NCBI GenBank assembly: GCA_025201705.1
Contig: MU617104.1
Coordinates: forward strand, 1-23,225
DNA: 23,225 nt
Source of the DNA: Dissophora ornata
Taxonomy: Eukaryota; Mortierellomycota; Mortierellomycetes; Mortierellales; Mortierellaceae
Direction of reading: 5' to 3'
Part shown: positions 327-20,190 of the stretch, piece after piece
Numbering within the stretch: position 1 is the first letter of the stretch
Layout: the number at the start of each line of letters is the position of its first letter
Translations under genes and position numbers: made by a program
Notes under the pieces: generated by a model
Seen by the model: only the letters and a program-made list of their open reading frames with translations
What the model was told of the DNA's origin: nothing
Databases searched by the model: none

Positions 327-2287
327 ATGTTTGCCTCAGCGCCCTCATCCCAGTCGCCCATCCACAGGTCGCTCCCACAGGCCTATGCAGAGATCTTGAA
401 TGACCTGAATCAAAAAGTAATCGCTGCCCAACCTCAGGATGTCCTTCAGTTCTGCGCCAACTACTTCAACCAGAAACTGGAGGAGCAACGTACTCGGTTC
501 TTGGCTACTGGTAAGGATGGGCTATCAAGATTTTGCTTGTTTCAAATAACGGTCTTTGGGTTAGCTTGTGTGCATGTGTGTGTGCGTGAATGTGTATGTG
601 TACGCGTTTGCGCTCTTGGACTGCGAAAGAGCACGGAGGCCCTTTTGCCTAGAAAGCATTTTCCGATAGTAGATGAAAAAAAAAAAAAAAGAGCGATATG
701 GTAGAGGGCGTTGAGCCAGATGGTAGAATCACGCAACACACACCTTGTAAATCCATCCTATCTACCATCAATTGCTAGTGAATGTGGTCCGGCAGTTCCC
801 TCCTGCCCTCATGTCCCTGAAGAGCACATGTCCAGACGAAATGCGAATACTGGAAGTAAAAAGAGGCTGAAAGAAAACATGCGATATGCAGTTCCGGCCC
901 TAGGATATACTTGGAACCGTTTTATAGCCCGACAACTTTCGCTTGGATGCTAACCAATGTCCGCTTTACTTTTCTTCCGTGTCTGCCATGTGTTTTACAG
1001 CCCGCACCGCGCCACAGCAGAATCGGGAGGCCCCTCAATTCCTGCCCGCGGTAGCGCCACCCATTGTCTCGGTATCATCCCCAAAGCTCGGTAGCGCCGC
1101 CACACCCGCAGCATCTAGCCCCGATCATTCGATGGAGAGTGAAAGCGATAGCGAAAGCGACGATGAGGACCAAGAGGATCCCAGCCCGTTACTCACGATG
1201 CCTAACTATATGCGCGGTCGCCGTACCTCTGTCAGTGCCGAGAGCATGGTCCCTAGCCATCAAAATTATGTCAAGACGGTGATCCCAAAGACGGAGGAGC
1301 AGCGTCGACGAATCGAGACCTCGATCTCCAACAACTTTCTTTTCAAAAACTTGGACGAGGATCAATATGAGGATGTTGTGAACGCCATGACGGAGAAACG
1401 GTTCCAGCGCAACGTCAAGGTGATCGAACAAGGTGCTGTCGGAGACTTTTTCTACGTGGTCGAGACAGGAACGCTGGACGTCTTCGTTGCAAAGAACGGC
1501 AGGCCATCCGAAAAAGTTTTCGAGTATGGACCGGGAGGAAGCTTTGGAGAGCTCGCCCTAATGTATAACGGACCACGTGCAGCAACTGTGACAGCAACGT
1601 CGGACGTAGTTCTCTGGGCTCTGGATCGAATCACATTCCGCCGTATTCTTATGGAGAACACTTCGAGGAAGAGGCGCATGTACGAGGCCTTTTTGGAGAC
1701 GGTCCCTTTGCTCATGTCTCTCGAGCCGTATGAGCGCCACAAGATTGCAGATGCTTTGGAGTCTGTGTACTTTGACGATGGAGAGGTAGTCGTGAAGCAG
1801 GGTGACCAGGGCGATAACTTTTTCATCATTGAGTCAGGAGAGGCTACTGTCGTCAAGTGCAACGATGAGGGTGTCGAATACCCCATGCCAGGGCTTGGAC
1901 CCGGCCAGTACTTTGGAGGTAATGTTCTGCGCAATTGTTGCTGCGCACTCAGTTTTTGTCCAAATGCCCTTCATACATGATCGAGTGGTTAGCTGATTGA
2001 TATTCTTGATGCCGTTTTCACAAACAGAGTTGGCACTACTCAATGATATGCCACGAGCTGCAACTGTCAGGGCAAAAGGAAGGCTAAAGTGCGCAACCCT
2101 TGGCAAGAGGGCTTTTGTGCGCCTGCTGGGACCTGTAGTTGAGATTATCAAGCGCAATAGCGGTAATTATCAGACTATCGAGCAACAGATCCAGCAGCGG
2201 CAGATGTTGCAGGAGCAGCAGGCAGCTGCCGACGCTGCGCCAGAGGCAACACCACTGCATCCTCAGGATCAAGTCAATCATCACTAA
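327..2287 (+). CDS. BCY1: cAMP-dependent protein kinase regulatory subunit (PKA-R, Bcy1 type)
   Basis: Three exons, 327-510, 1001-1918 and 2028-2287, join in phase (1 and 1) to give 453 residues. An N-terminal RIIa-type dimerisation/docking helix pair lies at about residues 14-55 ([20 protein letters not shown]). A Ser/Asp/Glu-rich linker leads to the inhibitor site RGRRTSVS near residues 132-139, a type II-like autophosphorylatable site very close to that of yeast Bcy1. Two cyclic-nucleotide-binding domains follow, with phosphate-binding cassettes [16 protein letters not shown] (about 242-257) and [16 protein letters not shown] (about 366-381). Both retain the Glu and Arg that hold cAMP. The C-terminus is a Gln/Ala-rich tail. 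The protein holds the PKA catalytic subunit inactive until cAMP binds. Length is close to Bcy1 (416 aa). Intron 1 (490 bp) is long for this locus and carries a degenerate GT run and an A-run. It converges with the RGS gene downstream. Confidence 0.95.
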
Positions 2288-3494
2288 ACCCCAATAGCGA
2301 ACGACGGCACCAAAAAAAAAGTCTTTCGTAGCATAAAGAATTGGTGGCATGGCCTCGTTTTTGTTTATTATTGTCCCATCCAATCCTCCCTTTTTGTCCT
2401 ACAGTAGCCCCAGGAGGGTAAATACAACAGGGATGTCTCTTTTTTTTCCTCCCTTATCTTGTTCACGCCTGTCCATACAATACAACTTGTCCAAACACCC
2501 TCTTTTTCGCTCATTCGCGTTGTAGTTACCTACCTATTAAAAACAACAGCAAGATTGTTTAAACAATGCTAGTATGTATGCATGGCATAACGCTGGAATC
2601 GGCGTATGATTGGTCTTTTGCGCAGGAGTATTTACCAATATTATGGGCGTTCATCGCCTTTCGGAGTTTCTATTCCACCGGGATATGTCGGTAATGTGGA
2701 CGCGTTTTCATGGAAGTGGTCAAGCAAGTGTGGGTCTATGAGAGAGGATGACCAACCTCTTCCTTTTCCCATTCCACCTCCAAAGCTAAATAAGAACTTA
2801 TAATTCAGTGAATCCAAAGGACAATGATGAGGAGCACTATCTCGTAAAAGGAGTTCAGTCAACGATGTTGGTTGTCTACTCAAGAGTGAAATCAGGCGCA
2901 TGATAGTTGGAGGACTGTTGTTATCGCAAACTTATGTTACTTGTGATATGTGATGATTTATTCTACCATCTTCCCGCAATTGCCCCGCTAGAGCATGCAG
3001 TTACCCCTAGCAGATGATCATTATTCTGGCTGGATTTTCCTCCTTTTCCCAGCGGTAATGATCATTTTCAAGGCACGCTGAACAACAAGGTGAACTGGCC
3101 CGAGCAGTAAAAACCCCATTCAGGCGATTTCCCCTTTGAGTAGTTTACTCCGCCTTGAATATTTTTCTCCGCGGCTTCTATCGTTCCAACACTAGTCTCG
3201 ATAATGGCCTTTTGGCGTCATTGGGTTGTGAAGCAGAGTTCATGTGGTAAATAGGTAGCACCTATGCTGTGCGAAAAGGGAATAATCTGGCAGGTTGCTC
3301 AAGACGAAAGATATGGACAATGTTATATATACATTTGAGAGAGACAAAGGATATCAACAGCGCTGAGGAACCGTGAAGGGAACCAAGCCTCGGTAGCAGT
3401 ATTACAAAATTTCTCTATGGCGTAGATAAAATACAGATGCTCAAGGGTGTCTATGTACAGAATTGTTTTGTGTTTTCTATGTTTTGTTTTTCAG
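2288..3494. other. Intergenic region between convergent genes (3' flanks)
   Basis: About 1.2 kb between the stop codons of the PKA-R gene (+) and the RGS gene (-). It must hold both 3' UTRs and terminators. T-rich blocks follow the PKA-R stop (around 2355-2460). A 10-bp inverted repeat occurs at 3014-3023 and 3056-3065. No open frame with recognisable protein or RNA gene was seen. Confidence 0.5.
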
Positions 3495-4430
3495 TTACGA
3501 CGGCGTCTGTTTCTTCATGGCTCGCGGGAGCAGCTTAAGCTGCTCCATCGCCTTTCGCCACGAATTGCGATCGCGATCCGAGTCCTCTCGCTTGAAGACG
3601 GGCACTGGCGACGACGGTGAGGGAGCTGTCTCAATATTTTTACTGGAGGCGCTCTCCAGGAACGAAGGATAGCTGGAGCTCTTCATCAGATCAGTGATGG
3701 AGTCTTTTGCCTGGTCAAGAACCTGTGGGTGATAATCGCCAGATGCAACAGCTTTTAAAACCCTGGAGCGGATAGCGTCTGACAAGTTGAGTTCGTATGG
3801 ACCGTCCAACTGGATGTATGCCTCGAGGATTATGAGCATGGTGCTTTGGAGCTCCGAAAAGAGTCGCCTTTGCGGTTGTGTCAAAAATTGAAGCGAGCTT
3901 TGGTGCAGGTTAAACTCGGGGCATGTTTCCCGGATTGAATCGTAGACGTGCTGGGCATAAAGCTATGTGGAGAGAGACAAAGCAGAGATGGTGAGATGCG
4001 TGGTAAACATGATCTACAGGTATCTAAAGGTGATAGCATGAAAATGACGGAAATAGTATCTTCCTAATACCTCGTATTCGCGTGAATGAAGCCAGAAGGC
4101 GAGGTTTTCGACACAAAACTGGGCGTGCAAGAATTCTGCAAAGTGTTCTAGAGAGTACGGTCCTCTTACTTGATCCAAGAGGATCTGTTGGAGTGATGGA
4201 GTTGAACTGCTGTAACTAAACGAGGAGGACCTCGACCGGGGAATGCTGCGAATACTGGTTTCTGGACTTTGTTTGGGATGAGAGCTGGAGTTATATTGTG
4301 GGCGCTGCTGCATTTCTTGTTGCTGTTGTTGTTGCGTTTGCTGCGTGTTGTGTGTAGGCATTGTGGTGTGTTGGTGCATGACTGGCCCATGAGGTGTCGG
4401 CGGGCTGGATATTGAAACGACGGCAGACAT
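3495..4430 (-). CDS. Short RGS-domain protein (regulator of G-protein signalling)
   Basis: Two exons on the minus strand, 4430-4071 and 3962-3495, join in phase 0 to give 275 residues. The N-terminal ~90 residues are disordered, rich in Gln, Ser, Pro and His, with a Gln run (QQTQQQQQQEMQQ). The RGS domain spans about residues 92-232. It contains FCVENLAFWL with the conserved Glu-Asn pair, the LNLSDAIRSRV segment corresponding to the usual 'IN...TR' contact region, and the C-terminal helix AKDSITDLMKSSSYPSFL, which fits the RGS signature closely. A Ser/basic tail follows. RGS domains speed GTP hydrolysis by G-alpha subunits. There is no DEP or membrane segment, so it resembles short fungal RGS proteins such as yeast Rgs2 more than Sst2; that comparison is by size and layout only. 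The start is the first ATG after a pyrimidine-rich leader. Confidence 0.88.
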
Positions 4431-8209: not shown

Positions 8210-12253
<4,044 letters not shown>

Positions 12254-12352: not shown

Positions 12353-14687
12353 TTATTCAACACGCATGGCGGAGAGAACCTCCGAATGCCTCAATTTGCT
12401 AGCCAAGAGTTGCAAGAAATCCATGGCTCCTGTATCCGGTTGCGGATGCTTGTCCAGATAGATGATGACGATTGAGACGTGCTTGTCAATGCGCGCAACA
12501 TAATAGGTGCATCCGATTTTGCGGTCGTAAAAGTATTGGCTCCGGAACTGGCGTAGGATGTGCATGCTGCCTTGCATGATAGAGATAATATTGGGCCAAT
12601 GGTCTCGAGGCGGATCCTAGTAGACGGGTTGCGTTATTTTGAGATTAAGGTCCGTTGCTGCTGAAGGGAAAACAAAAAAGAAACGAAGGAACAAAGGACA
12701 CAAAGAAAATCCTCTCGAGGCTGTCAAACATACCGGTGGATAGCTGTAAATACATGGGAAGGAGTTCAGACCCGTTGGAGCTTCATACGGCGCGTTTGCG
12801 CTGACCAACCCCAATGTCGAGAACCGAACACCATGAGATATTTCGTAGACGAACGAAATGCTCTGTGCCCCAGCCTTCTTTCGGAATGCCCGGATCCTAC
12901 CACACGAGAAGATAAACAAAACAAAGTCAGTCAACGACACGGATCGCTTGTGTGAACAACAGTCAAAAAGCTGACTTACATCCCGTGCATGTCCGGCTCC
13001 GTGTTTGCCCAAAGACTCCTTTCATCGCCGCCCATAGCCTGCTCTTTCTCCAGTAGAATGTCCATAAAGTAAATCGTCATCTTGGACTTTTCGCTTGCGA
13101 TCCACCGCCCGAGCCACTGCAAATGATTCGGCTGTAAATTGAATTTCCCTTTACTGCCTGCTCCTCCTCCTCCTGCTCCTCCCGAGGATGAAGAAGATGT
13201 GTTCTTCTCATCGCTTCCACCCCCGCTGTTACTCGTAGCAATGTTATTACTGTTGCTGCCAACACCAAAAAATGTCAGCCGCCACGATGTCTCCTCAGGT
13301 CGATGCACGGACTTGTCTGCATACTCCTGTTCCGTCGATATTCTCCTCCATTCTGAAAGCGCGACCAGAGCCAGATGTAAATTCGTTGCAGATTTTTGGA
13401 TATCGTACTCACATACGGCTTTGTGCATCAAGAGTGTGTGCTTCAATACTTGAATCTCACAACCGATACCCCGGCCTAGAACTGAGCTTTGGATCTCCAA
13501 CGTCCCCGAATCAAAAAGTTGGAGGGCCTGTTCTGTCTCTGCAATGAGTGTGTCAGTGTCGATTTCTACGGTCGAGAGTGAGAGCGTTCGATAGCTGATA
13601 GAGCAGGGAGAAAAAAGAAATGTTTAGTGCTCATTCCACTGGGCAAGCATGTTGCGACAGGAAGAAAGTTAGATGCATAATCACGTACATCCCGATCAAC
13701 GCCATACGAATATTGCACAGCTCCCGAAGAATGGTATAAAGTACAACATGATCCGCCGCCGATTGCTCTTCTTTCCCGCCATGATAACTCCTTTCTCCTT
13801 GATGATGAAAGTGAAGACCACTATAAGTTGGCGAGAGGCTGAGACCGGGGTTGGGTATATTTTCAGCAGCTCTTGCATTATGGATATTGCCGTTATTGTT
13901 ATTACTGTTACTGTTGTTGCTGGTGCTATAGTGGTAATTGCTGCTAGAGTTGTTGTTGTTGTTGTTGTTGTTGTTGCTGCCTTGGTTCCCTGAGACTTGG
14001 TTGATAGAGATGTATTGATGAATGCTAGGCTGACTCGCTTCTGACATGTTCGTAATTGGAGAACTTTGACCCGAAGTGGCCGTTGTAGGTCCGAAACCTG
14101 TTCCTACACCCTGTTGTCGCGATCCTGCTGACCGGGAAGAAGATGATGGTTGAAGCTGTGGTGGTGATGGCTCCAAAGTATCTGCGGAGCCGTATACCCC
14201 AACGACGGTGTCACGATATATCGAGATCTCGCGTTCCACGTCTGAAGTGAGATCGCTGTACATTTGGTACAGGTGCTATTCGATTTGCCGCCGCGTAAAA
14301 AAAAAGAGAAGTTGTCGTCCAATGTCAGAGATATAATAATAATGATAATAACGATCAAAGTTCGTGATTTGCTTGCTTGCCCATACGTCTTCTCTCCTGA
14401 ACATCTTTGGTTTCAGAAACTGCATCGAAGTATACACGCCTTCATATTGGATCACTCTTGAACATATGGCTCCTACAGTGGGATGTGCCTATATTGTGTC
14501 AAGCAATATATCAGCGCTTAGACTCCTCCATTCATTGGTTTTTGAGATCCTCCTCATGGTCACATTCCTGCTTGTTTCTCTTAGTCTGCATCCTAACCTT
14601 ACTGATTCTCATCAGGTGCTTATTGGCACAGGCGTAGTCGAAGGAGCCCAGAGCCTTGATCAGCTCGGCGCAATCTCTCGGAAACAT
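12353..14687 (-). CDS. KICS2: KICSTOR subunit 2 homologue (KICS2 / C12orf66 family)
   Basis: Six minus-strand exons (14687-14603, 14472-14387, 14275-13689, 13594-12980, 12896-12734, 12616-12353) join in matching phases to a 599-codon frame. I recognise blocks collinear with human C12orf66: N-terminal ELIKALGSFDYACANK; YEGVYTSMQFLKPKMFRRED followed by YSDLTSDVER; LIGIYRTLSLSTVEID; CEIQVLKHTLLMHKAVCEYD; LALVALSEWR; LQPNHLQWLGRWIASEKSKM; NTEPDMHGMIRAFRKKAG; YEAPTGLNSFPCIYSYPP; DHWPNIISIM; and CTYYVARIDKHVSIVIIYLD. In animals KICS2 works with KPTN, ITFG2 and SZT2 in KICSTOR, which brings GATOR1 to the lysosome to restrain TORC1 when nutrients fall. The protein exceeds the human one (about 445 aa) mainly because of an Asn/Ser/Gln/Gly-rich insert (about residues 94-230) and a Gly/Ser linker (about 360-400). 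The fungal function is inferred from the family. Confidence 0.82.
13750..14200 (-). repeat. Asn/Ser-rich low-complexity insert in the KICS2 homologue
   Basis: Roughly 140 codons inside exon 3 encode Ser/Pro/Gln and then long Asn/Ser runs, including nine consecutive Asn (AAC repeats, seen as a GTT-type run on the plus strand near 13949-13976). It sits between two blocks that are adjacent in the human protein. A second, Gly/Ser-rich insert lies at about 13140-13270. Confidence 0.75.
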
Positions 14688-14943: not shown

Positions 14944-15017
14944 GTTCCCAGTCCGGGGATCGAACCCGGGCCTTGTCGGTGAGAGCGACAAATCCTGACC
15001 ACTGGACCAACTAGGAA
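14944..15017 (-). tRNA. tRNA-Glu (anticodon CTC)
   Basis: Minus-strand 74-nt cloverleaf with no intron. The acceptor stem TTCCTAG pairs with CTGGGAA with one G-T wobble. The D arm is TGGTCCAGTGGTCAGG. The anticodon stem TGTCG/CGACA encloses the loop CTCTCAC with anticodon CTC. The T arm CCGGG-TTCGATC-CCCGG contains the B box GGTTCGATC. The anticodon arm and T arm match eukaryotic tRNA-Glu. Downstream T-runs follow on the minus strand. Confidence 0.95.
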
Positions 15018-16057: not shown

Positions 16058-16217
16058 GGTGAGTGACTCTGCTATGTAATATCTCTATCTTTGCAAAGGA
16101 AACAATAGAAAGCTCCGAATCGGCACAAACTTCACATTGTCCCACATCCGATCCCAGGCTTCACTTCAAGGCCAGTTGACGCCTCGATTGCCTGGAGTCA
16201 TCCCCACGCCCCACTCC

Positions 16218-16371
16218 CGTCCGACAAAGAACTCTTGACCACAAAAAAGTACCGCAACATCAACAGCGTGGTCTTCAACGAAAAGAGCCGCCCCGGGTCC
16301 GTCCTACGAAAGAACTCCCGGCCGCAAACAAGTACCGCAACGTCAACAGCACGGTCCGCAACGAAAAAAAG
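16218..16371. repeat. Tandem repeat, two units of about 82 bp
   Basis: Unit 1 starts at 16218 and unit 2 at 16300. Both share an AAAGAACTC block, then AGTACCGCAAC, TCAACAGC and CAACGAAAA in the same order, with substitutions between. A plus-strand frame is open through both, but it runs into low-complexity sequence and I do not call it a gene. Confidence 0.7.
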
Positions 16372-16535
16372 AAAACAACAAACAAAAACAAAAGAAAAAA
16401 GAAAAAAGAAAAAAGAAAAAAAAAGAAAAAGGAAAAAAGAGAAAAAAGGAATAGAAGGGAGAATGGGAAGAGGGGGCAAAGAAGAAAGGGAAGGGGGGAG
16501 TGGGAGGGGAAGAGGAAAAGAGACGGGGGAGATGC
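16362..16535. repeat. Polypurine low-complexity tract
   Basis: About 170 bp almost entirely A and G on the plus strand: an AAAAAAGAAAAAAG-like section (16363-16450), then GGGAGAGG-like sequence to about 16533. Open frames through it are compositional artefacts. Confidence 0.85.
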
Positions 16536-16810
16536 AGTCTGGGTTTCGAGAGGTGCTCATTGTTTTTTGCCTTTGTGCGTTTTCTTTTCACCTCTACAAA
16601 AACTCGAAACGAATAACGGAGGAGGAAAAAGAGGTGAGAAAGGGAAAGAGCCGAGATCGATACAGTCTGGGTTTTTGAGTTTTTTTGGCCCCTCATTTTT
16701 TTGTTGTCCTTCGCAAAAAAACAAAAAAACGGGAAGAGAGGTGCTCATTGTTTTTGCGTTTGTGCGTTTTCTTTTGACCTCTATAAAAATCTCAAAACGA
16801 ATAACAGGGT
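16531..16810. repeat. Direct repeat of about 75-90 bp with internal insertion
   Basis: The block at 16531-16622 opens with GATGCAGTCTGGGTTT and continues GAGAGGTGCTCATTG to GAATAACGG. Its opening recurs at 16659-16675 (GATACAGTCTGGGTTT). Its body recurs at 16736-16809 (GAGAGGTGCTCATTG to GAATAACAGG). In the second copy about 60 bp of T/A-rich sequence separates the two parts. Identity looks high, so the duplication seems fairly recent. Confidence 0.75.
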
Positions 16811-17010
16811 GCGAATAGCCAGACCACGTCCTCGTCGTGCACCCTGGGCAGCTCACTTGGTATTTATTTATCGAGTGAGCTGGCAGAGAGTCTGGTTTAG
16901 ACTAAAAGTACATAGCCTCGCAAACAAATAAATAAGAGAAAAAAGGGTAGTCTTCCTATCATAGGATACCTTCATTGCGAACAGGAACATAATTCGTAGA
17001 TCTCTAGAGG

Positions 17011-17489: not shown

Positions 17490-20190
17490 CTACAAATTAG
17501 CTGCACGAGGAAAGCGGACGTTATACAGCATCTCCGGGAGGAAGGCAGCAACGATTTGCCTACCGGCAAAGAATCGCCCTCCCAGCGTCTGCACTGCATT
17601 CGTTGCAGACTGGACAGAGTCAAACTTCAGATAGATCTCACCCTAAAGACGCGAGAAAAAAAGGCAATGGAGATTAGTCGTGTTTCCTCCCTTGCTGTTC
17701 AAGAGAAAGCCAATGTGGTTGGTACGTACCGGCGAGTCTTGCTCCACATGGATGTGAACAACCTGTCCATTCTTCTCCACCTCCTCTTTGACGTCCTCCT
17801 CCAATTCCTTGGCCCATTCCGGCTCGGTTTTACTATAACGCAGAACACGAAACAAACGATTAGGACCACGGTATAGTATTATAACAAGAAGGAAGAGTGC
17901 ATTTTCGTCGCGTCACATACTCTTCATCAGTAAACATGTTCTTCAGCAGAACAGAGCGAGAAGGCCCAACAACCGGAAGCTGTCTAGGAGGACTGGAAAT
18001 GCAAAAGACTGTCAATTAAGCGATCTCATCATCATCGAGAAACTGTAAGGTACGGTACATGTTTCCAACTTACACAAAAGAAGGAACTGCAGGGGCGGGA
18101 GCTGGAGTAGCGGTGGCAGGAGCAGTAGCTCCAAGGCTCGCATCACCCCTGGCAAGCTTTTGCATCAGTTCAGCCCTGGACTGGGAAGTCATTGCATATC
18201 CAGCAGTGTCTATAGAGTGAAAAGGTACATCGTTAGTTCTTGCGCCCACAGCAAAGAAGGGTACTTGCGTTTGACCGTAGTTAGGGCAGACGTATGCTTA
18301 CCACTGTCGTCGATGCTGATGCTGTTGTTGATCTGACTATTGTTATACTGGTAGCTGCTGTTACTCTGAGTATTGCTTCCCCTTTCTGTTACAAGTCCAA
18401 CCTTGATCTTAAATGAGTAAAGGAGAGAGAGCAAAAGTTAGATTACATGCAACTTTAGTATGACGCCAGGAATAATTCCCTGTAACCATATCATCGATGA
18501 GCGCGCTTACTGTTCTTCCAGCCAAAACTTGTCCATTCATGCGCTCCATAGCCTGCTTAGCATCTTCCGCATTCTTGTATCTATCGTAAATAATGTTTGG
18601 TAAGGTTAAACCACGGCCAATACATGTACGATACGAAAGTGGCGATGGTGCAATGCATTAAGCTCTAACAAGCCATGACTTACTGGACGAATGCGAATCC
18701 TTTCGATTTTCCTGTTTCAGCGTCCCTATGCAGTTTGATGAACTCGATAGGTCCAAAAGGCTCAAGAACGTGTTTAAGATCATCCTCCGTCAAGTCAAAA
18801 TTCACAGACCCGACGTAGAGGCGGTGCAGAGAAAGATCGGCGGCGGCGGATTGAGCAGGCGATTCCGTCGCAGTAGCAGTAGCAGCTTGACTATAGTTTG
18901 ATAAAGTGGTCAGGATATCGAATAAAGCATTAGGACCACGAAATATAATTGCATCAATAAGGCTGATGTATCTTGCACGTAAAGATTTGCTCAACATACG
19001 CCTGTGAAGCCGCCTGGAGGGCCAAGCGGTTCTTCTCCGATTCCGTGTGCTTGGCGATAACAGGGATGCCTAGAAGTTTCTGTCCGGTCAATTCGATTGC
19101 TTTGGCGACTGATTCTTCGTCATAAAATTCCACGTATCCAACCCTATCATAATCGATATAAAAGGATACATAGTGAGTGAGCTGCTGCGCTGTAATGATT
19201 CGATCAGTCGTATACTATCCAGTGTGTGTTAGGTCGCTCCTGGCTTACCCCTTTGATCTTCCAGTATTGCGGTCCTCGATAATGCGGGCAGCCCGTACTT
19301 TTCCAGCCTGTGAGAAGAATGCTTCCAATTCTGATGAGCGAAGGCGGGCAGAAAGCTGCATCACAAACACCGTTCTTCGGTCACAGGTAGTCTCATCTGC
19401 AGGGGGCGAGGGAGATCTTCTGCGACGGGAGTGCCTAATAATTCAAAGAGCAACAAAATATAAATAAAGCTTTTTCTACATCAAGAAGTCATCCTTGTCC
19501 CTGAATATCTGAAAAGACATACCCTCCACCGTAGCCCCTGGGGCTTCTGCTTCTGCGCGAACCGCGGTCCCGAGAGTAGGTTCTTCTGGGCTCCCGCTCA
19601 TAGCGCTCTCTGTCGTAGCGGTCGCTGCGGTTGCCGCGGCCATCTCTGTAGTCGCGGTAATCCCTGTCTCTATAGTCTCTCTGATCTCTGTAATACTCGC
19701 CATAGTCTCGATGTTCTCTAGAGTGACGGGGAGAGCGGGATCGTGAGTGACGATGGCGTCTGCTTCCCGATCGCTCGTCGCCCCTTTCCTTTGAATTTCC
19801 ACGTTCTTTTGATTTCGAGTGGGGTCTCTCATGTTCACGAGGAGACCGTGAGCGGTGTTCTTCTCTAAACGGATCAACCGAAGGAACTCGTTCGCTACTG
19901 AAGGAAGAAGATTGTTAAGTTTTTTGCTCTCCAAAGCTTTCTCTTCAGAACCGCAGGTTTTGCAAAATAGGATAGATACCTCTTTGAATTCCTCCGGGAG
20001 ATATCAATGTCCATCGGGATTGAGGGAGGGTGCTGCTCCTGCATTAAGGGAAAAAAAACAATAAAAAAAACTGTTTAGCCGTGAAGAGCAGCACTTAAAC
20101 AAACGAATCGATGCCCAGAGATGATGTAATTTATGTTCGTGCCTTCTGAAAAGGGGCATCGACCATGGCTTCAATCGTGTCGTAGTCCAT
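17490..20190 (-). CDS. RBM39: SR-type splicing factor of the RBM39/CAPER family (S. pombe Rsd1-like)
   Basis: Twelve minus-strand exons (20190-20143, 20038-19980, 19897-19523, 19434-19249, 19143-19000, 18890-18684, 18580-18511, 18407-18302, 18209-18074, 17992-17921, 17832-17730, 17642-17490) stay in phase and give 552 residues. An Arg/Ser/Asp/Tyr-rich RS-like region (about 36-175) is followed by RRM1 (about 181-257, TVFVMQLSARL and VGYVEF), RRM2 (about 293-372, LYVGSVNFDL and KGFAFVQY), a short helix RAELMQKLARGD, and a C-terminal UHM-type RRM (about 455-545, KNGQVVHIHVE and GGRFFAGRQIVAAF). This is the full RBM39 order. Such proteins help 3' splice-site recognition by binding U2AF/SF3B1-type ULM peptides through the UHM. 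The first intron appears to use a GC donor. Confidence 0.93.

Follow-up and report, generated by a model that had tools for sequence, protein, structure and literature searches.

The 23,225-nucleotide window analysed here, contig MU617104.1 (positions 1 to 23,225, forward strand) of the Dissophora ornata assembly GCA_025201705.1, carries on its minus strand (14687-12353) a gene that encodes a homologue, likely the true orthologue, of KICS2 (C12orf66), a subunit of KICSTOR. Genes for the other three KICSTOR subunits, SZT2, ITFG2 and KPTN, are all found in the same genome, and we put at about 80% the probability that the KICS2 homologue joins a predicted complex with these proteins that holds GATOR1 on the vacuole and keeps TORC1 off in nutrient shortage. 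The KICS2 gene has six exons, is in phase throughout and runs from ATG to TAA over 606 codons plus the stop codon. The first-pass annotation of the window had start, end and exon number exactly as in our rebuilt gene model; its count of 599 codons is corrected to 606.

Pfam assigns the protein to C12orf66_like/KICS2 (PF09404; E 4.2e-41); its score of 141.5 bits lies too far above the cut-off of 22 for a chance match, and the family profile recognises exon 6 by itself (E 1.1e-13). SOG2, also listed by Pfam, reaches an E of 0.82 and lies far below its own cut-off. When the protein was compared with the PDB by sequence, the top three matches were the mouse chain 2gnx and two human KICS2 chains (E 7.1e-28 to 5.2e-27), followed by four unrelated proteins at E 0.0067 or worse. 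Most of this signal sits in the C-terminal 195 residues. The segments DHWPNIISIM and VARIDKHVSIVIIYLD align, one after the other, with HWPNVIMIM and LTRPEPHFTIVIIFES of the human protein, confirming the earlier observation that the conserved blocks follow the human order, and a Foldseek search with a structure model recovered the fold of the solved human and mouse KICS2 chains, in line with the family proposed at first pass. For the first half of the protein, support comes from the fungal alignment and the fold match; the fold alignment took in 27 of the 38 KICS2 matches described below and omitted the fused, partial or short proteins P0014, P0017, P0024, P0025, P0026, P0028 and P0030-P0034. 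That the gene product is a helical protein of another family merely resembling KICS2 is extremely improbable, as KICS2 far outscores everything else listed by profile, PDB sequence and fold, and we rejected this identity, there being no better profile or fold match among those listed.

Compared with human and mouse KICS2 (PDB 9v6e_D, 9o5a_F and 2gnx; 445 residues), the fungal protein is longer, at 606 residues. About 120 of the extra residues lie before the core, where residue 246 aligns with human residue 125, and about 48 lie in a Gly/Ser-rich stretch (354-409 here, 238-245 in human). P0015 of Entomortierella parvispora, a member of another Mortierellomycota genus, is already named 'KICSTOR complex protein C12orf66' and has 56% identity to the protein described here.

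The first-pass annotation had suggested a search of the same genome for SZT2, KPTN and ITFG2, and this search recovered all three. ITFG2 lies on contig C310 as four collinear pieces, one with an internal stop, and when hand-joined frames were searched back against the PDB, both of the two matches obtained were ITFG2 (best E 3.3e-33). SZT2 was first detected on contig C138 with human SZT2 residues 1-962 (E 1.4e-11); two frames there match SZT2 chains only in the PDB (three of three each), covering human residues 220-442 and 2719-3059. For both SZT2 and KICS2 one locus was seen in the genome, a lower bound in each case. Single-exon matches to KPTN on contig C26 were weak (E 8.6e-4 and 1.3e-3), and a model of five exons and 905 residues (C26:13284-16404, minus strand) was built, of which residues 1-710 match kaptin only in the PDB (three of three, E 8.5e-19). 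A protein search with its residues 245-690, which admitted sequences of about 500-1580 residues and so placed animal KPTN outside its range, gave 40 relatives, of which 39 belong to Mortierellomycota and the remaining one to Ambispora; P0061 of Entomortierella parvispora, already named 'KICSTOR complex protein kaptin', is 56% identical over this region. The KPTN model is twice the length of the human protein; it has an N-terminal stretch rich in His and Asp and ends in a long tail rich in Glu and Lys. In Benniella sp., the contig recorded for three KPTN-like proteins (P0054, P0073 and P0077) is in every case 1,884,029 bases long, suggesting a duplication of KPTN on one contig there. GATOR1 is complete at the level of gene presence, with IML1/DEPDC5, NPR2 (NPRL2) and NPR3 (NPRL3), the genes corresponding to yeast SEACIT (Iml1-Npr2-Npr3). 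The genome also contains a CASTOR1_N match with an internal stop (28.7 bits against a cut-off of 26.5, E 2.7e-5) and a PF11968 match over its cut-off (E 1.1e-45), which may represent either Bmt2 or SAMTOR.

In human KICSTOR, KICS2 forms the link between SZT2 and the pair of ITFG2 and KPTN. By analogy, the fungal KICS2 would join SZT2, ITFG2 and KPTN in a four-subunit KICSTOR and make the same connection between SZT2 and the ITFG2-KPTN pair. The complex would sit on the vacuole, hold GATOR1 there and bring it to the Rag/Gtr GTPases; GATOR1 held in this way would shut TORC1 off when nutrients are short, and loss of KICSTOR would be expected to leave TORC1 active during starvation. Because all subunits and the client GATOR1 are encoded, the simplest reading is that KICSTOR would do this job at the vacuole of the fungus as well. 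Another possibility, which we regard as unlikely, is that KICS2 is a true orthologue within a rewired KICSTOR, having a role other than GATOR1 tethering or belonging to a partial complex. The lineage-specific low-complexity inserts in KICS2, the long KPTN extensions (905 residues in the model, 436 in human), the low identity to human KICS2 (30% over the C-terminal 193 residues) and the three-protein complex inferred for Mortierellomycota in the accessible text of Barua, Plecha and Muszewska (Sci Rep 2025, PMC11836306) would all be in keeping with such rewiring. Loss of the function would, however, be expected to scatter the set, and the four KICSTOR and three GATOR1 subunits are all kept, which favours the tethering role.

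Several observations weigh against KICS2 identity or a KICSTOR role. By sequence, the first half of the protein scores a weak 10-11 bits against human KICS2. Template modelling scores of the Foldseek matches to KICS2 chains were 0.38-0.43 normalised by query and 0.57-0.72 by target. The structure model was built from the deposited D. ornata protein P0001, without exon 2, and has a mean predicted local distance difference test score (pLDDT) of 62, with 245 of its 571 residues below 50; these include residues 454-496, which belong to a conserved part of the protein rather than to an insert. The accessible part of PMC11836306 describes the KICSTOR of Mortierellomycota as made of three proteins, taking Lobosporangium transversale as its example, and reports Sestrin in this phylum; our Sestrin search of the genome returned no match, and Sestrin matched no control genome either.

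The distribution of homologues bears on how the gene came to be in this fungus. A first protein search with KICS2, in which the 7994 candidates with most words in common were scored, gave 34 matches, all named as genera that we take to belong to the phylum Mortierellomycota. When the C-terminal region served as query, 38 fungal proteins matched among 263 candidates, the same 34 and four from other early-branching fungi (two Basidiobolus species, Funneliformis caledonium and Geosiphon pyriformis). No animal sequence was listed in either search, and the absence of Dikarya from them carries no information. We built a tree of 20 rows, comprising 17 of the 38 matches, the window protein, human and mouse. 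The 14 Mortierellomycota rows, including the window protein and the D. ornata copy P0001, form one group (support 100/99), within which branching is mostly unresolved. The two Glomeromycotina group together (99/96), as do the two Basidiobolus with lower support (85/72), and a long branch separates the 18 fungal rows from human and mouse; with two near-identical animal rows, the position of the root lies outside the reach of this tree. The topology fits vertical descent. Since the homologues in Mortierellomycota, Basidiobolus, Funneliformis and Geosiphon group by lineage, retention of an ancestral KICSTOR fits the sequences better than separate gain. The first-pass annotation had left these two origins side by side, and the balance now shifts to an ancestral KICSTOR-type branch kept in the Mortierellomycota lineage.

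Contamination from an animal, or recent transfer from one, would accord with the first description of KICSTOR as conserved in vertebrates only (Wolfson 2017, as quoted in the accessible text of PMC11836306). We consider this origin exceedingly unlikely: all 34 matches of the first search carry Mortierellomycota genus names and the four further ones are other early-branching fungi, the Mortierellomycota form a single group, a long branch sets the fungi apart from human and mouse, the gene has five short introns, and its RBM39-like neighbour is also fused to KICS2 in the gene models of two relatives. Animal origin is thus rejected by the fungal distribution of the homologues and by the tree, in which the phylogeny called for at first pass reveals no animal contamination.

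KICSTOR in a fungus is not new, contrary to what the first-pass annotation implied. The accessible text of PMC11836306 already reports KICSTOR homologues in non-Dikarya fungi (Mucoro-, Mortierello- and Glomeromycota), gives the complex only among early-diverging lineages and describes TORC1 components as in general vertically inherited, and the Entomortierella P0015 entry already bears the KICSTOR name. Where our results differ is in the count: all four KICSTOR genes are present here, against the three-protein version in that text, and for Lobosporangium transversale itself public databases contain both KICS2 (P0003) and an incomplete KPTN (P0067). The same text assigns every member of Mucoromycota more than two copies of SZT2, compared with the single locus seen here, and its Table 1, as far as accessible, lists no KICSTOR subunit for yeast, compared with four genes here. 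Fungal KICSTOR genes are therefore already known, and the present result adds modestly to them: all four are encoded in at least one genome of Mortierellomycota.

The KICS2 exons lie on the minus strand. Exon 1 (14598..14687) starts with the ATG at 14687 and ends at the donor GTTAGG; exon 2 (14387..14488; gene model and homologue alignment) encodes 34 residues; exon 3 (13689..14275; gene model and alignments) contains an Asn/Ser-rich stretch at residues about 90-235, where the confidence of the structure model is low. Exon 4 (12980..13594; gene model, Pfam and PDB alignment) encodes the helical core and the start of the C-terminal domain, with the Gly/Ser-rich insert, exon 5 (12734..12896) rests on the gene model and PDB alignment, and exon 6 (12353..12616) encodes the C-terminal domain with DHWPNIISIM and VARIDKHVSIVIIYLD and ends in the stop codon at 12353-12355. 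The five introns measure 109, 111, 94, 83 and 117 bases and are all of the GT..AG type. Support for junctions 1 and 2 comes from aligned homologues whose sequence continues across them, for example as ...RISK/AHP... in P0002, P0003 and P0006. The closest database protein, D. ornata BGZ58_006477 (P0001), is identical over all of its 571 residues and differs from our model by two gaps, the 34 residues that exon 2 encodes and a single Asn in an Asn run. Exon 2 is present in 22 of the 27 aligned fungal homologues, while two of the other five skip it and three start later; given this prevalence, the deposited P0001 model is very likely wrong at exon 2. One Linnemannia elongata model (P0018) skips the exon too, and from the alignment this is very likely an annotation error as well. 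The Asn run is encoded by a (GTT)n tandem repeat, a microsatellite at 13949-13976 on the minus strand, and because the deposited protein has one Asn fewer in this run, the length of the repeat may vary between strains. We rejected the idea that the Asn-rich stretch is an annotation artefact, as the stretch keeps the reading frame of exon 3, inside which it lies, and the low-complexity stretches of relatives at this place vary in length.

One neighbour is a protein kinase C-like gene with C2, C1 and kinase pieces (9019-12253, plus strand), whose last frame ends at 12253, tail to tail with KICS2 and 99 bases from its stop. Upstream of KICS2 lie a tRNA-Glu (14944-15016) and, on the same strand as KICS2, pieces of an RBM39-like RRM gene (18070..19214, minus strand), which is not part of KICSTOR. 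Its RRM_1 (48.4 bits) and RBM39linker (32.7 bits) pieces exceed their cut-offs and two more RRM pieces (17.7 and 18.1 bits) fall below. RBM39-like/KICS2 fusion proteins are found in databases for Linnemannia hyalina (P0014) and Podila epigama (P0025), and are most simply explained as two genes of a conserved neighbourhood that were merged in the gene models. In Gamsiella (P0017) KICS2 is fused to a Tim17-family part, so the neighbourhood may differ among relatives. Several signalling genes share the contig with KICS2, including a cyclic-nucleotide-binding-domain protein at 928-1980 (plus strand), likely a protein kinase A regulatory subunit, and an RGS-domain piece at 3495-3962 (minus strand). 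A Lys/Glu-rich, coding-like stretch at 16120-16900 (plus strand) belongs to a dispersed repeat with 32 genome matches, itself included, on 23 contigs; four of them begin at base 1 of a contig, and the match on contig C911 has 93% identity over about 350 bases.

Taken together, Mortierellomycota probably keep a complete four-subunit KICSTOR alongside GATOR1, inherited vertically from an opisthokont ancestor, which would contradict the three proteins of the published picture. The four-subunit count qualifies a detail in the accessible text of PMC11836306, the sole fungal KICSTOR survey found in our literature search, and the analysis flags a skipped exon in the deposited D. ornata gene model. 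In published work, epilepsy and overgrowth in humans have been connected with defects of KICSTOR. The standard yeast model is without KICSTOR, and a fungus with four subunits and GATOR1 would make it possible to study the role of KICSTOR, and the need for each of its parts, in a small culturable system. If the four-subunit picture is true, Mortierellomycota would offer, among culturable organisms, the simplest ones for deleting a whole animal-type KICSTOR piece by piece.
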